DNA from: Synechococcus sp. Nb3U1
GTDB taxonomy: Bacteria > Cyanobacteriota > Cyanobacteriia > Thermostichales > Thermostichaceae
Length of the DNA: 64,000 nucleotides
NCBI RefSeq assembly: GCF_021533835.1
Contig: NZ_JAKFYQ010000001.1
Span: forward strand, 2,114,427 to 2,178,426
Direction of reading: 5' to 3'
Positions 4,535 through 16,209 of this stretch are shown piece after piece (the stretch's first letter is position 1; every line of letters begins with the position of its first letter). A program made the translations under genes and the position numbers. The notes under the pieces are model-generated. The model saw nothing but the letters and a program-made list of their open reading frames with translations, did no database searches and was not told where the DNA came from.

Positions 4535-4547
4535 AGATGGGTTGAAG

Positions 4548-5273
4548 ATGCCCGGCGAACCCGTTTCTCTCGTTTCTCTCGTTTCTCTTAGGTCTGGTGG
4601 CGCTTTCTACCTACTGCTGCAACTCACCGATTCTGCTCTGCCGATTGGGGCCTATTCCCACTCTTGGGGCTTAGAAACTGCCGTTCAAGCGGGGCAACTG
4701 CGGGATCGAGTCGGGGTACAGCAGTACCTATTGGGGGTTTTGCATCTGAGCTTGGCTCCTTTTGAGGGTAGAGCCTGTGGGCTAGCCTATTTGCGGGCGC
4801 AGGAGGGATCCCCGGCTGAGTTGAGGGACTTGCAGGCGCACCTAAACGCCGCTCGTTGGGCTGCTGAACCCCGACAGGCCAGTTTGAATCTGGGCAAACG
4901 CTTGGCCCAACTGGCAGAACGCACCTGGGGGATCCAACCTCCTACCCATGCAGAAGAAGGGTTGCACCATTGTTTGGTGTTTGGCTGGGTTTGCGCCGCA
5001 GCGGGCGTTGGCCTGGAGGATGCCTTGCGGGCCTACTTGTTTTCGGCTCTGTCGGGATGGGTCTCAGCAGCGGTACGGTTGGTTCCTCTGGGCCATAGTG
5101 ACGGACAAGCTTTGTTGGCTAGCCTGTACGAACCGATTGAGCAGGCGTTGCAACAGAAGATCGTGCCGAACCTGAGCCTTGAGCTGGGATCCCAGTTGAG
5201 CAGCTTTGCCCCTTTACAGGAGCGAGATGGTCAGGCCCACCAACAGTTGTATTCTCGCCTATTTCAATCTTGA
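4548..5273 (+). CDS. ureF: Urease accessory protein UreF
   Basis: UreF works with UreD/UreH and UreG to deliver nickel to urease; it acts as a GTPase-activating and gating partner. The signature LTDSALPIGAYSHSWGLE lies near residue 25, and an all-helical body of about 215 residues follows with the conserved Glu-Gly-X-X-X-Gly-Leu-Ala. No other ure gene is in the window, so ureF is solitary here, as is common in cyanobacteria where urease genes are scattered. ATG 4548 is used; TTG 4542 is possible. The first codons contain three exact GTTTCTCTC units (Val-Ser-Leu repeats), a slippage-prone tract. Confidence 0.9.
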   Translation: MPGEPVSLVSLVSLRSGGAFYLLLQLTDSALPIGAYSHSWGLETAVQAGQLRDRVGVQQYLLGVLHLSLAPFEGRACGLAYLRAQEGSPAELRDLQAHLNAARWAAEPRQASLNLGKRLAQLAERTWGIQPPTHAEEGLHHCLVFGWVCAAAGVGLEDALRAYLFSALSGWVSAAVRLVPLGHSDGQALLASLYEPIEQALQQKIVPNLSLELGSQLSSFAPLQERDGQAHQQLYSRLFQS

Positions 5274-8171: not shown

Positions 8172-8705
8172 ATGGGAAACAGTCAAACTAAGGTGATGGT
8201 TAAATCCGAGAAACGGGCTTTCCTGGAGCGGTGGCACGATGTTCTTGCCCCCAATTCGTTGGGCTATCGCATTCGGCTTTTGTCTCAATTGGTGCGGCGG
8301 CAATTTCAGTCTTACCTGGAGCCTTTTGGCCTGACCACCTCCCATTGGGTGGTGCTGTGCTGCCTCTGGGAAGAGGACGGGATCCCGACCTCCACCATTT
8401 GCGAGCGCCTACAGCAATTGGGGGGCACCATGACCGGCGTATTGGATGGCATGGAAAAACGGGATCTGATTCGGCGGCAACGGGATCCCCAGGATCGGCG
8501 CATTTGGCGGGTCTACCTGACCCCAGCCGGGGAAAAACTGAAGGAGGTGTTGCCCCCCCTGATTTGGGAAATGCGGGATCATACCTATGGATGCTTTACC
8601 CCAGAAGAACGGGAAACCCTCTCCCAGCTGGTGGATCGGTTGATCGCCCATTTATCCGATCAGACCATCGTGACAGAATCCGTGGCGGAATCGTCGAATC
8701 GGTGA
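8172..8705 (+). CDS. MarR-family transcriptional regulator
   Basis: 177 residues with a winged helix-turn-helix. Helix 1 (about 35-60, LGYRIRLLSQLVRRQFQ) and the C-terminal helices form the dimer. The recognition region STICERLQQLGGTMTGVLDGMEKRDLI is followed by the wing RQRDPQDRRIWRVYLTPAG, whose Asp-x-Arg-Arg is the family hallmark. MarR proteins usually repress nearby genes and release DNA on binding small molecules. It converges on the phn transporter genes with only 15 bp between, so it is not obviously their regulator. The target is unknown. Confidence 0.9.
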   Translation: MGNSQTKVMVKSEKRAFLERWHDVLAPNSLGYRIRLLSQLVRRQFQSYLEPFGLTTSHWVVLCCLWEEDGIPTSTICERLQQLGGTMTGVLDGMEKRDLIRRQRDPQDRRIWRVYLTPAGEKLKEVLPPLIWEMRDHTYGCFTPEERETLSQLVDRLIAHLSDQTIVTESVAESSNR

Positions 8706-8720
8706 ACCAAACGACAGGCT

Positions 8721-9533
8721 CTAGGTGAGAGCTTGGCGAGCCTTGGCGGAGATCCACTCGCTGATGAACACAGAAATGAAGATGACAATCAGGATCAAGC
8801 TCACCTGGTTCCAGCGCAGGGTGTTGATGGAAGCATCTAGCTGTAGGCCAATTCCGCCCGCACCCACCAGACCCACTACCGTGGACTCGCGCAAATTGAT
8901 ATCCCAGCGGTAAACCGTGACCCCGAGAATATTGGTGATCACCTGTGGCCAAATGGCATAGCTCAGCACCTGGGCACCGCTAGCCCCTGTGGAACGGATC
9001 GCTTCTACCGGTTCTTCGTTAATTTCTTCAATACCCTCGTAGATCAGCTTGCCCATAAAGCCAACCGAGCGCAGGGCAATGGCTAGGGTTCCGGCCAGAA
9101 CCCCCGGCCCCAGAATGATCACCAGGATCAAAGCCCAGATCAGGGAGTTAACGGAGCGAGTACCCACGATGATGAACAGGGCAATGTAACGTACCAGCAA
9201 ATTGGGAGTGGTGTTGCGAGCCGCCAAGAACGCCACTGGCACCGAAATGACGAAGGACAGGGCCGTACCCAAGGTGGCAATGGTGAGGGTATCCCAAAGA
9301 GGCCGCCAAAGCTGCGACATATAGTCCCAGCGGGGCGGTACCCCCCGCGAGAGCATTTCTCCCCCTTGGCGGGGTGCATCCAACACAAAGCTCCAAGTGG
9401 TGCGCTCGGCAATGAACCGGGCACAAGCTAACATCACCAGCAGCAGCACCAGCCAGAAAGCATATTCCAGCAGAATTTGCTTCTGATTGCGCCACTGCCA
9501 AGTTTTGATCCCATTGCTTTCCAGAACAGGCAT
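8721..9533 (-). CDS. phnE: Phosphonate-type ABC transporter permease (second)
   Basis: 270 residues with about six membrane helices. The binding-protein-dependent transport signature EAIRSTGASGAQVLSYAIWPQ (about 160-180) docks the ATPase. The family-typical Val-Asn-Ser-Leu-Ile-Trp-Ala and Tyr-Arg-Trp-Asp-Ile-Asn-Leu-Arg segments are present. It is last of four genes and its ATG overlaps the stop of the first permease by one base (TAATG), so translation is coupled. It probably pairs with the first permease as a heterodimeric channel for phosphonate, phosphite or a related oxyanion. Confidence 0.9.
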   Translation of the reverse strand: MPVLESNGIKTWQWRNQKQILLEYAFWLVLLLVMLACARFIAERTTWSFVLDAPRQGGEMLSRGVPPRWDYMSQLWRPLWDTLTIATLGTALSFVISVPVAFLAARNTTPNLLVRYIALFIIVGTRSVNSLIWALILVIILGPGVLAGTLAIALRSVGFMGKLIYEGIEEINEEPVEAIRSTGASGAQVLSYAIWPQVITNILGVTVYRWDINLRESTVVGLVGAGGIGLQLDASINTLRWNQVSLILIVIFISVFISEWISAKARQALT

Positions 9534-10342
9534 TATTGCACCCTCTTACGAATCCAGCCGGAAGTCAGTTCCACCACCATCACCAACGCAATAATCACCA
9601 GGATGATTGCCGAGGCCGTGTCGTAGTCGTAGCGGCGCAGGGAAGTATTCAGGGTTGAGCCAATCCCGCCGGCACCGACAATCCCCAAAATAGCCGCCTC
9701 ACGAATGTTGATGTCGAAGCGATACAGGGTCAGACCGATCATGCGGGGCAACACCTGCGGCAACACCGCATAGCTGACCATTTGCAGCCAGGAGGCCCCC
9801 GTCGAGCGAATCGCCTCCACTTGCATCGGGTCAATTTCTTCGATGTCTTCCGCCAAAAGCTTGCTGAAAAAGCCCAAACTGCCAAAGGTGAGGGTGAGCA
9901 CCCCGGCAAAAGGCCCAAAGCCAAACATGACCACGAACAGAATGGCAATGATCACCTCCTGAAAGGTGCGAGACAGGGCGATCAGGCCGCGACAAAACAG
10001 ATAGATCGGCATCGGCACCAAGTTGCGGGAGGCACCAAACCCCACCGGAACCGCGACGATGAACCCGGCCACGGTGGAGATGGCGGCCATGGTCACGCTT
10101 TCCATCATCCCGGTGAAGATCAGGTTGCCGCGGGTGGTGAAATCCGGCTGCAAAAAGGCCAGTAGCAGCCGCCCACTGCGCTCAATACCGCGGGCTACCC
10201 GGGCTGGGTCGAAGTTGAGGGTGGATATAGCGAAGATCAGATAGATAATGCCACCCACAACCAATCCCCAACGAACCCAGGGATTCTTAATCAGGGGCGG
10301 CGGTGACCATTTCCGACTGCTCAGGGTTGTTGCCTGTGTCAT
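9533..10342 (-). CDS. phnE: Phosphonate-type ABC transporter permease (first)
   Basis: 269 residues from ATG 10342, six predicted membrane helices, with the EAA loop EAIRSTGASWLQMVSYAVLPQ and a C-terminal YRFDINIREAAILGIVGAGGIG segment typical of PhnE. ATG 10342 has GGAG six bases upstream. The longer frame to 10441 would overlap phnC and adds 33 residues foreign to the family. The two permeases share their EAA-loop pattern but differ elsewhere. Two different PhnE subunits in one operon are known in several phosphonate and phosphite importers. Confidence 0.9.
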   Translation of the reverse strand: MTQATTLSSRKWSPPPLIKNPWVRWGLVVGGIIYLIFAISTLNFDPARVARGIERSGRLLLAFLQPDFTTRGNLIFTGMMESVTMAAISTVAGFIVAVPVGFGASRNLVPMPIYLFCRGLIALSRTFQEVIIAILFVVMFGFGPFAGVLTLTFGSLGFFSKLLAEDIEEIDPMQVEAIRSTGASWLQMVSYAVLPQVLPRMIGLTLYRFDINIREAAILGIVGAGGIGSTLNTSLRRYDYDTASAIILVIIALVMVVELTSGWIRKRVQ

Positions 10343-10379
10343 GTTCTGCTCCGCGATGTTGACTTCTGCAAGGGATCCT

Positions 10380-11183
10380 TTAGTGAGCAGCAGCAGAGAC
10401 GGCCTCGCTCTCTTCAGAGTCTTGGGCGGGGCCAGAGGCATTCCAATCTTCTTCGCCGTAAATCTCGCTCAAGACACTGGGGGTAAGGCGATTGGGGGGG
10501 CCATCATACACCACCTCCCCGAAGCGTAAACCGACGATCCGCTGGGCGAACATCTGCGCCAAAGGCACATCGTGAATGTTGATGATCACCGATAGGCCCC
10601 GTTCCGTAGCCAGCTCGTTGATCAAGCGCATGATTTGGCGGGAGGTTTTGGGATCCAAGCTGGCGGTAGGCTCATCCACCAGGAGCAGCTCGGGGTTCTG
10701 CAAAAGGGCCCGCGCAATCCCCACCCGTTGCCGCTGACCGCCGGAGAGGGCATCGGCTCGCTTATCAGGAAACTCCGACAACCCCACCCGCTCCAATAGA
10801 CGAAAGGCTTCATCGATGATGGCCTGAGGAAACTTGCGGAACCAGCTCTGCCAGAAATTGACGTACCCCAGTTGCCCGGAGAGAATATTTTCCATCACAG
10901 TCAGGCGTTCCACCAGGGCATATTCCTGGAAGATCATGCCGATTTTGCGTCGTGCTTGCCGTAACTCGCGCGTGTTCAAGCGGGCGAGATCGACACGGTT
11001 GAGCCAAACGCTGCCACTAGTAGGTTCCACCAAGCGGTTGATGCAACGAATCAGGGTGCTTTTCCCGGCTCCCGAAGGGCCAATTAAGGCCATCACCTGC
11101 CCATCAGGAACATCTAGGGTCACCCCTTTCAAGGCCATATCGCCTGTAGGGTAACGTTTGCTCAAGGAGTCGATACGTAGCAT
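10380..11183 (-). CDS. phnC: Phosphonate-type ABC transporter ATP-binding protein
   Basis: 267 residues. Walker [11 protein letters not shown]-loop [14 protein letters not shown], signature [15 protein letters not shown], Walker [13 protein letters not shown] and switch His in NIHDV are all intact. The insert between Q-loop and signature ([15 protein letters not shown]) is characteristic of PhnC. It powers import through the two downstream PhnE permeases. It starts 37 bp upstream of the first permease start and ends in a Ser/Ala/Glu-rich tail. The 130-bp gap to phnD contains two GGGATCCC palindromes, one extended to AAGGGATCCCTT. Confidence 0.95.
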
Positions 11184-11313
11184 CTGGATAACCTACTCTA
11201 AACGGACAAGGGTTTAACGGTTACTTCCTCAGAACCCAACTTTTTGGCATCCAACAAAAAGGGATCCCTTATGGTTTTCCCTTAACACGGGATCCCTGCT
11301 CTATTCAGTTCAC

Positions 11314-12291
11314 CTATTGGGGAGGGTCTTTCTCCTGAATCAACCGGATCACTTCCCAATCTTCCTTGTAGGTGATGGGGCCAAAAGCAGCACGGTCAAA
11401 GGCTTCTGCTAACTTGGTTCCGGTAAAGTCAAAGGTGTAGAAAGCCTCGCGGATTTTCTCTTGCAGCTTTGGATCCAAATTGTAGGCGTAGCCAAAAGGA
11501 CCGCTGGGGAAGGTTGCAGATTTGTAGAGGGTGCGGAACTGATTGCACTCCACTTGTCCGGCGATGCACATGCGGTTGAGCACATCGTTGGCAATGGGGG
11601 CAGCATCGTAGTCTCCGTTGTACACACCCAAGATGGAGTTTTCGTGACCCCCGGAGAAGTTGGCCTCATAGTCCACACCATCCTTGAAGCCAGTTTCCTC
11701 CTCAATCAAAATGCGGGCGCTGATGTAGCCGGAGTTGGAAGAGGGCTGGGTAAAGGCAATGCGGCGGCCTTTGATGTCTTCTAGCTTTTCTAGGCCGCTG
11801 TCGATGCGGGTGATCACTTCCATTTCATAGCCAAAGCTGCCGTCTTCCTTGGCAAAAATGGCGAAGGGCACATAGCCCGCTTGGTTCACAGCACGAGGGG
11901 TGCAGCCGGTGCAGGTGCCCATGATGTGTAACCGTCCGGCCCGCAGCGCTTCTGTTTGAGCCGCTTCAGAGTCGACAGGCACGAATTGGACGTCTCTGCC
12001 AGTCACCTCTTTGAGGTAGTCGGTGAATTCTTGCCAGGTTTCGGAGTAAACCGCTGGATCTTCAGAGGAGGTGTAGGAGATTAGCAAGGTATCAGGGTTA
12101 ACAATTTGAGCCGGATCCGTTGGCGTATCTGCCACTAGGTCGCCATCAGCATCGCAGTACCGTTCATCCATGCCCACCGGACGAGGGCAAGATTGCGCTT
12201 GAGCCGCTTGATAACCCACCATTGTCATGGCTACTGCAGCAAGAGCAAGACCCTTAGACAGCAGACGAGTTACAGAGTGATAGGCCAACAT
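11314..12291 (-). CDS. phnD: Phosphate/phosphite/phosphonate-type substrate-binding protein
   Basis: 325 residues with a signal peptide (cleavage likely after Ala-Gln-Ala near 33). The N-terminus of the mature protein is Cys- and Asp-rich (SCPRPVGMDERYCDADGD). The PhnD body follows: LLISYTSSEDPAVY, LRAGRLHIMGTCTGC and AFTQPSSNSGYISARILI, where Ser/Thr residues bind the oxyanion. It captures the ligand in the periplasm for PhnC/PhnE. No C-P lyase, PtxD or phosphonatase is in the window, so the ligand could be phosphonate or phosphite. A Pho box 211 bp upstream predicts phosphate-starvation control. Confidence 0.9.
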   Translation of the reverse strand: MLAYHSVTRLLSKGLALAAVAMTMVGYQAAQAQSCPRPVGMDERYCDADGDLVADTPTDPAQIVNPDTLLISYTSSEDPAVYSETWQEFTDYLKEVTGRDVQFVPVDSEAAQTEALRAGRLHIMGTCTGCTPRAVNQAGYVPFAIFAKEDGSFGYEMEVITRIDSGLEKLEDIKGRRIAFTQPSSNSGYISARILIEEETGFKDGVDYEANFSGGHENSILGVYNGDYDAAPIANDVLNRMCIAGQVECNQFRTLYKSATFPSGPFGYAYNLDPKLQEKIREAFYTFDFTGTKLAEAFDRAAFGPITYKEDWEVIRLIQEKDPPQ

Positions 12292-12737: not shown

Positions 12738-13979
12738 TTAACGACCGCCAATCACACCAATATAATTGGTCACCCACTCGTAGTAGGGCACACAGTCCAT
12801 GCGGCCATCGCCACAGTCGGCCACGGGGGTTTTCCAAAAAGAGATGCGCTCGAAATTATCGATGCCATTGGTTTGGCAGCCTTCTGGCCCCAGTAGCTCG
12901 CTGGCTTGACAAGCGGCAGGCACCACCGGCACTGAACCGAACCAAGCCGCCAGATCTCCTTGTACTTTCGGGTTCAAGGAATGTTCCATCCATAGGTAGG
13001 CGCAGTTGGGGTGTTTGGCGGTGGCACTGAGCATGGTGGTATCCGACCAGCCGGTGGCCCCTTCCTCCGGCACAACGCTGGCGATGGGTTGTCCTTCGTA
13101 CTGCAACAGGTTCACTTGGAAGGGCCAGGAGCCAGAGGCCACCACCCCTTCGTTGACAAAGTCATCCACCTGCACCGCCGCATCGTGCCAGTAGCGACCA
13201 ATCAGCTGCCGTTGCTGACGCAACAGATCCAGAGCCGCATCAAACTGTTCACGGATGAGCTCGTAGGGATCCGTAATGCCCAGTTCCGGTCGGTGGGCCT
13301 TCAGGTACAGAGCAGCATCAGCAATGTAGATGGGGCCATCGTAGGCTTGGATGCGGCCCTTGTTGGATTTGCCATCCGCCAGGGTTTTCTCTTCAAACAC
13401 CACATCCCAACTGGTGGGTGGCTCCCGGAAGGCTTGGGTGTTGTACATCAATACATTGGATCCCCATTGGTAGGGGACACCGTAGTGTTTGCCCTCCACG
13501 GTATGCCAGGGGGCATCCTGCAGGCGCGGGTCGATGGTGTCCCAACTGGGGATGAGGCGTGGGTTAATTTGCTGTACCCGTTCCCCCTTGATCAGGCGCA
13601 GGGTGGCATCGCCAGAAGCGGTCACCAGATCAAAGCCTCCCTCGTTCATCAGAGCCACCATCTCATCGGAGGTCGCCGCCACCTTGACGCTGACTTTGCA
13701 GCCGGTCTCTTTTTCAAAGCCGGTCACCCAGTCGTAGGCGGGATCCGTTTCACCCCGTTCAATGTAGCCCGCCCAAGCCACGATCGAGACTGCCCCCTCC
13801 GGACGGCCCAAGCGATAGAGAGGCCCACGGGCTGCATGAGCAGAATGGGGGGTGAGCAACACGGCCAGCAGAGCCAAGCCCAGCGAGAGCAACAGGGTCA
13901 GCCCTAGCCGTATCCACAGGCGAAGTGGCACTGAGAAGATGGCGCGCAGAGGAGTGAAGGGTTTCAGGTTAGCGATCAC
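12738..13979 (-). CDS. PotD-like extracellular solute-binding protein
   Basis: 413 residues with a long signal region (membrane helix about 22-42, cleavage probably after Ala-His-Ala). The mature protein opens VSIVAWAGYIERGETDPAYDWV and shows FEKETGCKVSVK and DLVTASGDATLRLI, the pattern of the spermidine/putrescine-binding family (bacterial solute-binding family 1). PYQWGSNVLMYN and NCAYLWMEHSLNP agree with that family. No permease or ATPase genes adjoin it, so it must serve components encoded elsewhere. Polyamine is the default ligand, but compatible solutes or other cations are possible. Confidence 0.8.
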   Translation of the reverse strand: MIANLKPFTPLRAIFSVPLRLWIRLGLTLLLSLGLALLAVLLTPHSAHAARGPLYRLGRPEGAVSIVAWAGYIERGETDPAYDWVTGFEKETGCKVSVKVAATSDEMVALMNEGGFDLVTASGDATLRLIKGERVQQINPRLIPSWDTIDPRLQDAPWHTVEGKHYGVPYQWGSNVLMYNTQAFREPPTSWDVVFEEKTLADGKSNKGRIQAYDGPIYIADAALYLKAHRPELGITDPYELIREQFDAALDLLRQQRQLIGRYWHDAAVQVDDFVNEGVVASGSWPFQVNLLQYEGQPIASVVPEEGATGWSDTTMLSATAKHPNCAYLWMEHSLNPKVQGDLAAWFGSVPVVPAACQASELLGPEGCQTNGIDNFERISFWKTPVADCGDGRMDCVPYYEWVTNYIGVIGGR

Positions 13980-14121: not shown

Positions 14122-16125
14122 TCAACGCTGCTTCAGTACCAATAGAGTTAGATCATCGTACAAGGTTTGGGAGCCGATAAATTGCCGCACTTCCTTGACG
14201 ATGGATTGGCGAATTTGGCTAGCGCTCTGGTGCCAATGGCAGCTAATCGCCTGACAGAGCCGGTTTAGGCCAAAGTGCTCTCCGGCTTCGTTCTCAGCTT
14301 CGGTCACACCATCGGTGTAAAGTACCACTCCATCTCCTGGTTCCAGGAAAAATTCGTGCTGGTTCACAAAGGAGCTGATATCGGCCTCCAACCCAATGGG
14401 GAAGCCTAGGTCGATGGTATCCACTCGCTGGATTTGCCCATTGGCGCGTACTAGGATTAACTCCTCGTGTTGGCCGCTCAGTTTAAGCTGGCCAGAGTGG
14501 TAGTCTAGCAGCGACAGGCTGAGGTTCTTGTCGGTGCGCATCCGTTGCACATTCTCGTAAATCACCTGATTCAGGATCGATAAAAAGCGTTTGCTGTCGG
14601 TTTCCCCATTAGCCAGTAGGGTGCGCACGGCCATCTGCACCATGATCATTAACACGCCACTTTCCAAACCGTGCCCGGTCACATCGCCGATGCCGATTTT
14701 GACGCAACCATTTTGACGCAAAACATCGTAGTAATCCCCCCCTACCTCTGTCGCCGGTTCCATAAACCCGGCAATGTCAAGCTCCGGGATCCCTTGCAAT
14801 TCCTCCTCTTTGGGCAGGATCATCTGCTGCAGACGGCGGGTGATCTCCACTTCGGTACTGAGGCGCAAGTTCTCCACTTGCAGAGCTTGGTTCAGCTGTG
14901 AGATCTCGCGGTTGGCATCTGCTAGAGCCTTTTGCGAACGCTTCAGTTCCTCGGTTTTTTGGTTGAGCAGCCACTGGTCGTGAATGGCTTGCGGCACCGA
15001 CTGGAGCAAATCCATCACCACTGCAGATGTGCCAAAGCCCGCCTGCTCTACCCCCAGCCAAGGCAAGGGATCCACCAGCTCAGGGCTGCTGGCTAGGATG
15101 TCAAATTGCAGATCCGGGCGGATTTGGCCAATGTGATAGTCACGGCAAACGTGATGGTTGGGGGCAATCCGCCACAGACCCGCGGGGGTTTCCCTCTCTT
15201 GTCCAATCGCTGTCTGGCGCACCGCTTCTACTTCCAGAGATTGAGCCGCTTGGGCAGATTGCCACCACAGATACACCTGCGTATAGGCGGCAGCCATCGG
15301 ATCGTTGATAACGCGATGACGACCATACCGTCGCCGGAACCGGCTTAAAAAGGTTTGGTTGGCGGGGGTTTGTAGATTTTGAAAATGGCCCCAACAGGCG
15401 TAGTGCCCCACTGCTGCTGAGCCAATGTGCAGCAGCTCCACCTCGGAAATGCTCATCGCCATCACTGGCAGTTGGCTGGCCGGGATCCCAGCTTCCGCCA
15501 AGGCGTGGTAAAACCCAAGGTTGCTGTCTCCGTTCAGGGTACTGAAGATGGCATCCGGGGCTGCCTGTCGAAGAGCTTGCAACACACTCCCAAAGTGTCG
15601 GGATCCGAGAGGGACATAGCATTCCCCCGCCAACTGGCCGCCCCAATGGTGCAACTGCCCCTTCAGATAGGTATGGGCAACCCGCGGAAACACATAATCG
15701 GATCCCACCAAAAAGATGCGGCAATGTCCCTGCTGCAATAGCCAACGCAAGGCTGGCTCCACCTGCTGATTCAGACAAGCCCCGGTGTAAAACACCTGCC
15801 GCGACTGCTCCATGCCCTCGTACTGCACGGGATACCACAACAGGGCATCCGCCGCCTCGAAGACGGGCAACACCGCTTTCCGACTGAGGGAGGTCCAGCA
15901 ACCAAATACCGTCGCCACCTGCGGGATCAGATACTCAGCCGCCGATAAAAAGCGCTCTGGATCCGAAGCGCCGTCTTCGATGATGGGTTCGATCTCGGAG
16001 CCGAGCAGGCCCCCCTGTTGATTAATCTCATCAATGGCCAACAGAGCTGCATCCACCAAAGGGGCTTCGCTGATGGCCATGGTGCCACTGAGGGAATGCA
16101 GGATCCCGACTTGGATGGTGGACAT
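14122..16125 (-). CDS. UrtA/AmiC-type receptor domain fused to PP2C (SpoIIE) phosphatase
   Basis: 667 residues. Residues 1-365 are a type I periplasmic-binding fold very close to urea/short-amide receptors: VGILHSLSGTMAISE, ALLAIDEINQQGGLLG, VFGCWTSLSRKAVLPVFE, LLWYPVQYEGMEQS. No signal peptide or membrane helix is present, so it is cytoplasmic, like AmiC. A coiled coil (about 385-440, HDQWLLNQKTEELKRSQKAL onward) joins it to a SpoIIE/RsbU-type PP2C domain (about 440-667) with GDYYDV, GDVTGHGLESG, YTDGVTEAEN and DDLTLLVLK, the metal-binding Asp residues being present. It probably dephosphorylates an anti-sigma-antagonist-like partner when an amide or urea binds. ATG 16125 follows GAGAGGGG. 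Confidence 0.85.
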   Translation of the reverse strand: MSTIQVGILHSLSGTMAISEAPLVDAALLAIDEINQQGGLLGSEIEPIIEDGASDPERFLSAAEYLIPQVATVFGCWTSLSRKAVLPVFEAADALLWYPVQYEGMEQSRQVFYTGACLNQQVEPALRWLLQQGHCRIFLVGSDYVFPRVAHTYLKGQLHHWGGQLAGECYVPLGSRHFGSVLQALRQAAPDAIFSTLNGDSNLGFYHALAEAGIPASQLPVMAMSISEVELLHIGSAAVGHYACWGHFQNLQTPANQTFLSRFRRRYGRHRVINDPMAAAYTQVYLWWQSAQAAQSLEVEAVRQTAIGQERETPAGLWRIAPNHHVCRDYHIGQIRPDLQFDILASSPELVDPLPWLGVEQAGFGTSAVVMDLLQSVPQAIHDQWLLNQKTEELKRSQKALADANREISQLNQALQVENLRLSTEVEITRRLQQMILPKEEELQGIPELDIAGFMEPATEVGGDYYDVLRQNGCVKIGIGDVTGHGLESGVLMIMVQMAVRTLLANGETDSKRFLSILNQVIYENVQRMRTDKNLSLSLLDYHSGQLKLSGQHEELILVRANGQIQRVDTIDLGFPIGLEADISSFVNQHEFFLEPGDGVVLYTDGVTEAENEAGEHFGLNRLCQAISCHWHQSASQIRQSIVKEVRQFIGSQTLYDDLTLLVLKQR

Positions 16126-16209
16126 ACCCCTCTCTCTGCAAGGCATAACTCACGGCTCAGACAAAAGCCTGTAAGCTAATATACTGGCATTACGGAGGAT
16201 CAGATGTTT

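Follow-up and report, generated by a model that had tools for sequence, protein, structure and literature searches.

A gene encoding P0001, a fusion of a UrtA-type receptor to a PP2C phosphatase, lies at 16125-14122 in the window, the 64,000-nucleotide stretch of Synechococcus sp. Nb3U1 DNA that was analysed. With a probability of roughly 0.6, P0001 is predicted to be a cytosolic urea-responsive PP2C that acts on an Slr1659-type antagonist against an Slr1658-type kinase. This reading draws on the domain architecture, the conservation of the receptor pocket, phylogenetic co-occurrence, operon linkage in relatives and a kinase/antagonist pair in the same genome, all read directly from sequence, and from these we infer urea as the ligand, catalytic activity of the PP2C and the identity of its substrate.

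The P0001 ORF runs unbroken on the minus strand from ATG 16125 to a stop at 14122-14124 and encodes 667 aa; the boundaries 14122-16125 given by the first-pass annotation were exact, with minus as the coding strand. The ATG at 16125 was preferred as the start to another ATG in the same frame, at 16146, because the RBS-like GAGAGGGG directly precedes the former. Pfam searches assigned residues 4-360 to Peripla_BP_5 (PF13433, E 4e-130) and residues 472-665 to SpoIIE (PF07228, E 1e-37, 130 bits vs. a cut-off of 25), each match scoring well beyond its threshold. Neither a signal peptide nor a membrane helix was found in P0001, whose N-terminus is MSTIQVGILHSLSG and whose 19-residue Kyte-Doolittle means peak at 1.48. 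The AlphaFold2 model (mean pLDDT 80) comprised a Venus-flytrap domain and a PP2C domain with helices at residues 369-395 and 404-435 between them; linker residues 356-416 were of low confidence (below 50). The closest PDB fold to this model was the urea-binding protein 8TG1 (E 2.5e-37), and the matches followed the order 8TG1, 7S6F, 7S6E, 8HIC (urea-binding) and then AmiC. Pfam, hydropathy and fold matching therefore agree with the UrtA/AmiC-like binding fold without signal peptide or membrane helix that had been annotated; the coiled-coil joint proposed between receptor and phosphatase is matched by the linker signature LADANREISQLNQALQVENLRLSTEVEITRRLQQMILP and the two predicted helices, and the SpoIIE/RsbU-type PP2C domain is complete as described. 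The architecture can be excluded as a chance artefact, since full-length homologues with the same architecture occur in nine other genomes.

Table 1. Features of the P0001 gene and its upstream gap (window positions).
Feature	Position	Strand	Basis
UrtA-type Venus-flytrap receptor domain, residues 1-357	15055..16125	-	PF13433; 9/9 8HIC pocket residues; fold match 8TG1
Linker, residues 358-446, with coiled-coil signature LADANREISQLNQALQVENLRLSTEVEITRRLQQMILP	14788..15054	-	two model helices; motif common to whole PP2C clade
SpoIIE/SiaA-type PP2C phosphatase domain, residues 447-667	14125..14787	-	PF07228; SiaA NCBIfam; 6k4e; metal residues
RBS-like GAGAGGGG	16127..16134	-	read from sequence, directly before ATG 16125
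NtcA-like box GTATATTAGCTTAC (GTAN8TAC)	16171..16184	-	84-bp upstream gap, 46-59 nt before ATG

Nine residues surround the ligand in the solved structure of urea-bound Prochlorococcus UrtA (PMC10392092). All nine positions of P0001 were identical to 8HIC (W77, S79, Y98, Q101, E103, Y144, F146, N198 and S225), and the same nine residues were found in 8TG1 and in the exported UrtA of the same genome. In contrast, the AmiC pocket reads YSYPEYYVT against WSYQEYFNS in P0001. Since the pocket is UrtA-type at 9/9 positions in P0001 vs. 4/9 in AmiC, urea is favoured over acetamide and other short amides as the ligand, while the kept pocket may also suit a close urea analogue. The urea or short-amide sensing first proposed for the fusion is thus narrowed to probable urea sensing, with the short amides disfavoured. 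The sequence comparison gives good support to a cytosolic receptor that responds to a urea-like ligand and controls a PP2C. A different ligand feeding an unchanged PP2C output, such as acetamide, formamide, hydroxyurea, guanidine or a related small amide or analogue of urea, is a minor but real possibility: AmiC, with the same fold, binds short amides, and the pocket is changed in cytosolic relatives, as H replaces both Q144 and Y190 (UrtA numbering) in six copy-b sister fusions and I replaces Y190 in several kinase fusions of the cytosolic receptor family. However, five of the nine positions differ in AmiC, and P0001 keeps all nine, including Q144, Y190 and N246, which hydrogen-bond to urea. 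The altered pocket residues of the copy-b and kinase fusions indicate that the cytosolic receptor family has diversified in ligand. Further cytosolic UrtA-like receptors were seen on kinase or PAS-containing proteins (L047, L051, L057-L059 and L061-L063) with the pocket changes Y190I, Y190F, Q144E and Q144R/Y190H/N246K, and other ligands are possible for these.

For the output domain, the acidic PP2C residues D464, D481, D605, D657 and D658 were all kept in P0001, and the domain matched PDB 6k4e by sequence (E 2.5e-9). By score and metal-binding aspartates, P0001 is thus classed as a SpoIIE/PPM-type PP2C. Its linker motif recurs in PP2Cs of the same clade that carry Amt, PAS, receiver or other inputs. 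In RsbU, a coiled-coil linker drives PP2C dimerisation and activity, with experimental support, and this role has been proposed as general (PMC12143880). Among the copy-b UrtA-PP2Cs, the metal-binding GGD motif is changed to GGN in L137 and L138, the latter also with SNG for TDG, and these two phosphatases are probably inactive.

The genomic neighbourhoods of relatives were then used to predict the partners of P0001. A same-strand operon headed by UrtA-PP2C and continuing with GGDEF, slr1658 and slr1659 genes was found in L134, L135, L136, L137 and L145 (copy-b), and a sixth UrtA-PP2C gene (L144) adjoins slr1658 and slr1659 without GGDEF. The operon partners are a DUF6272-like protein of ~205 aa and a STAS-like protein, which NCBIfam assigns to the Slr1658 family and the Slr1659 superfamily of regulators, respectively; HmpUVW was accordingly set aside as the partner system. 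Of 380 genomes of cyanobacteria, 133 carried the PP2C clade of P0001, 133 the Slr1658-type kinase and 131 both, so that 131 of the 135 genomes with either gene have both and only 4 are discordant (Fisher p 9e-98 across the class, a value that overstates independence because the genomes are related). Within one genus both were present in 11 genomes and neither in 14 (p 2e-7), and within the genus of the present strain both were present in two genomes and neither in four. The two genes lie on the same strand and at most 500 bp apart in at least 27 genomes, and many of these PP2C/kinase clusters contain a GGDEF gene. Of the 37 loci examined, 36 have an antagonist with an FLNSSG motif next to the kinase; in the remaining one (L197) the available sequence ends soon after the kinase gene. 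FLNSSG resembles the peptide LLYLNTSSIK that contains the phosphorylated T68 of SiaC (PMC7647112). These comparisons pointed to an Slr1658-type kinase and an Slr1659-type antagonist as the predicted partners of P0001. More widely, the slr1658 loci L175-L203 showed a siaABCD-like cluster of PP2C, GGDEF, slr1658 and slr1659 that is widespread in cyanobacteria, often followed by a sensor protein with the helix motif TT-EHGD, which it has in common with the GGDEF protein.

The genome of P0001 holds one such kinase/antagonist pair, with adjacent genes at C1:1238257-1239237 (kinase 1238257-1238823, antagonist 1238905-1239237), 0.9 Mb from the P0001 gene. The kinase matched the NF052618 (Slr1658 family) equivalog with 243.7 bits vs. 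a cut-off of 200, and the antagonist matched NF047705 with 156 bits vs. a cut-off of 100. The statement of the first-pass annotation that no partner is adjacent therefore stands within the window, but a pair exists elsewhere in the genome; the genome-wide look for STAS/antagonist genes that it had suggested yielded this Slr1659-type antagonist and three standalone STAS proteins. The latter (with one strong RsbW-like ATPase, L152, L153, L154 and L156) look like separate partner-switch components, and they were ranked lower as partners, being unlinked to the PP2C clade of P0001. No SiaD-like GGDEF protein with a dedicated N-terminal helix was found in this genome, the matches hitting the GGDEF domain itself; one weak GGDEF match extends partly into the helix region. 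It is unlikely that the PP2C of P0001 targets another phosphoprotein, such as a standalone STAS protein with an RsbW-like kinase or phosphorylated PII. The presence of the three STAS proteins and the ATPase, together with the lack of a partner adjacent to the P0001 gene, would fit such a target, but the distribution of the PP2C clade follows that of the Slr1658-type kinase almost perfectly, the two adjoin in many genomes, and the operon homologues of P0001 sit with slr1658/slr1659 and without RsbW-type genes.

According to the predicted urea switch, cytosolic urea would bind the UrtA-like Venus-flytrap domain of P0001, and closure of this domain would alter the coiled-coil linker and, through it, how the PP2C dimerises and how active it is. 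The Slr1658-type (SiaB-like) kinase would phosphorylate a conserved serine of the Slr1659-type STAS antagonist, from which the PP2C of P0001 would remove the phosphate. Once dephosphorylated, the antagonist of the relatives probably acts on the GGDEF enzyme of the same operon, as SiaC does on SiaD in Pseudomonas. In the present genome the kinase/antagonist pair stands alone. Counted against the urea switch were the 0.9 Mb between pair and phosphatase, the dedicated-helix GGDEF that was not found in the genome, and the four genus-mates without the whole system.

Similar to the SiaABCD system of Pseudomonas aeruginosa (PP2C SiaA, kinase SiaB, antagonist SiaC and diguanylate cyclase SiaD), the relatives carry a like gene set in one operon and a similar acceptor motif in the antagonist. 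The systems differ in that SiaA has a membrane-bound HAMP input and P0001 a cytosolic UrtA-like one, that the cyanobacterial kinase and antagonist score under the SiaB and SiaC family cut-offs (30 bits vs. a SiaB_fam_kinase cut-off of 85 for the Slr1658-type protein of this genome, E 2.5e-7), and that no dedicated GGDEF gene was found in the genome of P0001. P0001 was rejected as SiaA itself, as the NCBIfam SiaA model (NF038263) gave 50 bits (E 1e-13), far under its cut-off of 700; by analogy, it may work like SiaA as the input to a cyanobacterial partner switch. With UrtA of the urea ABC transporter, P0001 has the fold and the nine pocket residues in common, at 53% identity to the UrtA of its own genome, but it differs by the lack of an export signal and a urt operon, the phosphatase fusion and a separate clade. 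An assignment as UrtA (TIGR03407, 434 bits vs. a cut-off of 492.75) was rejected, given also the missing signal peptide and the location outside a urt operon; the genuine UrtA of this genome, which has a signal peptide and a permease gene next to its own, is encoded at C1:396855. AmiC of the P. aeruginosa AmiC/AmiR system likewise has this fold, works in the cytosol and governs a signalling output, but it acts on the separate antiterminator AmiR, while the receptor of P0001 is fused to its PP2C; with only 4/9 pocket residues the same, P0001 was not taken for AmiC. RsbU/RsbP-type PP2Cs and the cyanobacterial HmpUVW share with P0001 a sensor, a coiled-coil linker, a PP2C and, as predicted for P0001, a STAS substrate. 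They were set apart by their partner kinases, which are RsbW-type.

The partner candidates of the genome exceed the NCBIfam cut-offs of the Slr1658/Slr1659 superfamily, for which the only known role found was an iron-limitation recovery phenotype upon slr1658 disruption in Synechocystis (PMC7555055). In the open-access literature searched, no phosphatase partner for Slr1658/Slr1659 was described, and neither UrtA-PP2C nor Amt-PP2C fusions were found in any paper there, most subscription journals lying outside this search. If the urea switch is true, P0001 would be a protein that senses urea in the cytosol directly, the orphan regulators Slr1658/Slr1659 would gain an assigned phosphatase clade, and a siaABCD-like partner switch would appear to be common in cyanobacteria, a switch that three purified proteins would suffice to test.

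The survey of the architecture that had been proposed in the first-pass annotation detected 15 full-length UrtA-PP2C copies, with 52-58% identity, in 10 of 390 cyanobacterial genomes, namely this genome and nine of one other family, of which five carry two copies. None was found in the five other genomes of the same genus or the two genomes from other genera of the same family that were searched, and a whole-protein scan of the genome contigs returned standalone UrtA and PP2C homologues but no fusion. In further genomes, the same receptor type is joined to histidine kinase, GGDEF or PAS-PP2C outputs, which were assigned partly from sequence motifs. The tree placed all 25 UrtA-type transporter proteins in one separate clade (100/98), while P0001, among long branches, clustered with 13 direct PP2C sister fusions (99/97). 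The receptor of P0001 is thus placed by the tree in a cytosolic lineage apart from exported UrtA, and a recent copy of the UrtA of its own genome was ruled out. One direct fusion, L144, was placed elsewhere, so the direct receptor-PP2C fusion probably arose or re-formed more than once. It is very improbable that P0001 has no present role, as an orphan gene that is decaying or came by horizontal transfer. Its absence from the seven searched relatives and the metal-binding Asp lost in two copy-b sister phosphatases might suggest this, but its frame is intact, its catalytic and pocket residues are kept over deep divergence, and upstream lie an RBS-like sequence and, possibly, an NtcA box.

The NtcA-like box is only suggestive: five GTAN8TAC sites were counted in the 64 kb vs. 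2.6 expected, with a chance of ~0.3% for one in the 84-bp gap, no convincing -10 element was seen with the box upstream of the P0001 gene, and no such box is conserved ahead of the homologues in family f13. The urease accessory gene noted 9 kb away was judged from its sequence to be a UreF-like ORF at 4542-5273 on the plus strand, but is probably coincidental because of its distance, its opposite strand and its lack of linkage to any predicted partner. The same genome also encodes an Amt (ammonium transporter)-PP2C fusion (L139:8071-10461; PP2C part C4, 68076-68888), of which the PP2C is 65% identical to that of P0001 and belongs to the same clade. This fusion and the possible NtcA box are consistent with a nitrogen-sensing role of P0001. 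Cyanobacterial nitrogen control is usually framed through 2-oxoglutarate and PII. We suggest, tentatively, that intracellular urea (UrtA-PP2C) and ammonium (Amt-PP2C) might converge on the single Slr1658/Slr1659 partner switch, as nitrogen-source sensing beside PII and NtcA.

Amt-PP2C fusions were recognised by motif also in L210, L226 and L227, the last at most 160 bp from an slr1658-type gene with a broken frame. In the window, by sequence, a gene for a putrescine/spermidine-type periplasmic binding protein (12738-13979, minus strand) lies directly downstream of the P0001 gene with a gap of ~140 bp, followed by phosphonate/phosphite-type ABC transporter genes for a binding protein, an ATPase and two permeases (8721-12291, minus strand), and opposite to these by a gene for a MarR-like regulator (8172-8705, plus strand).
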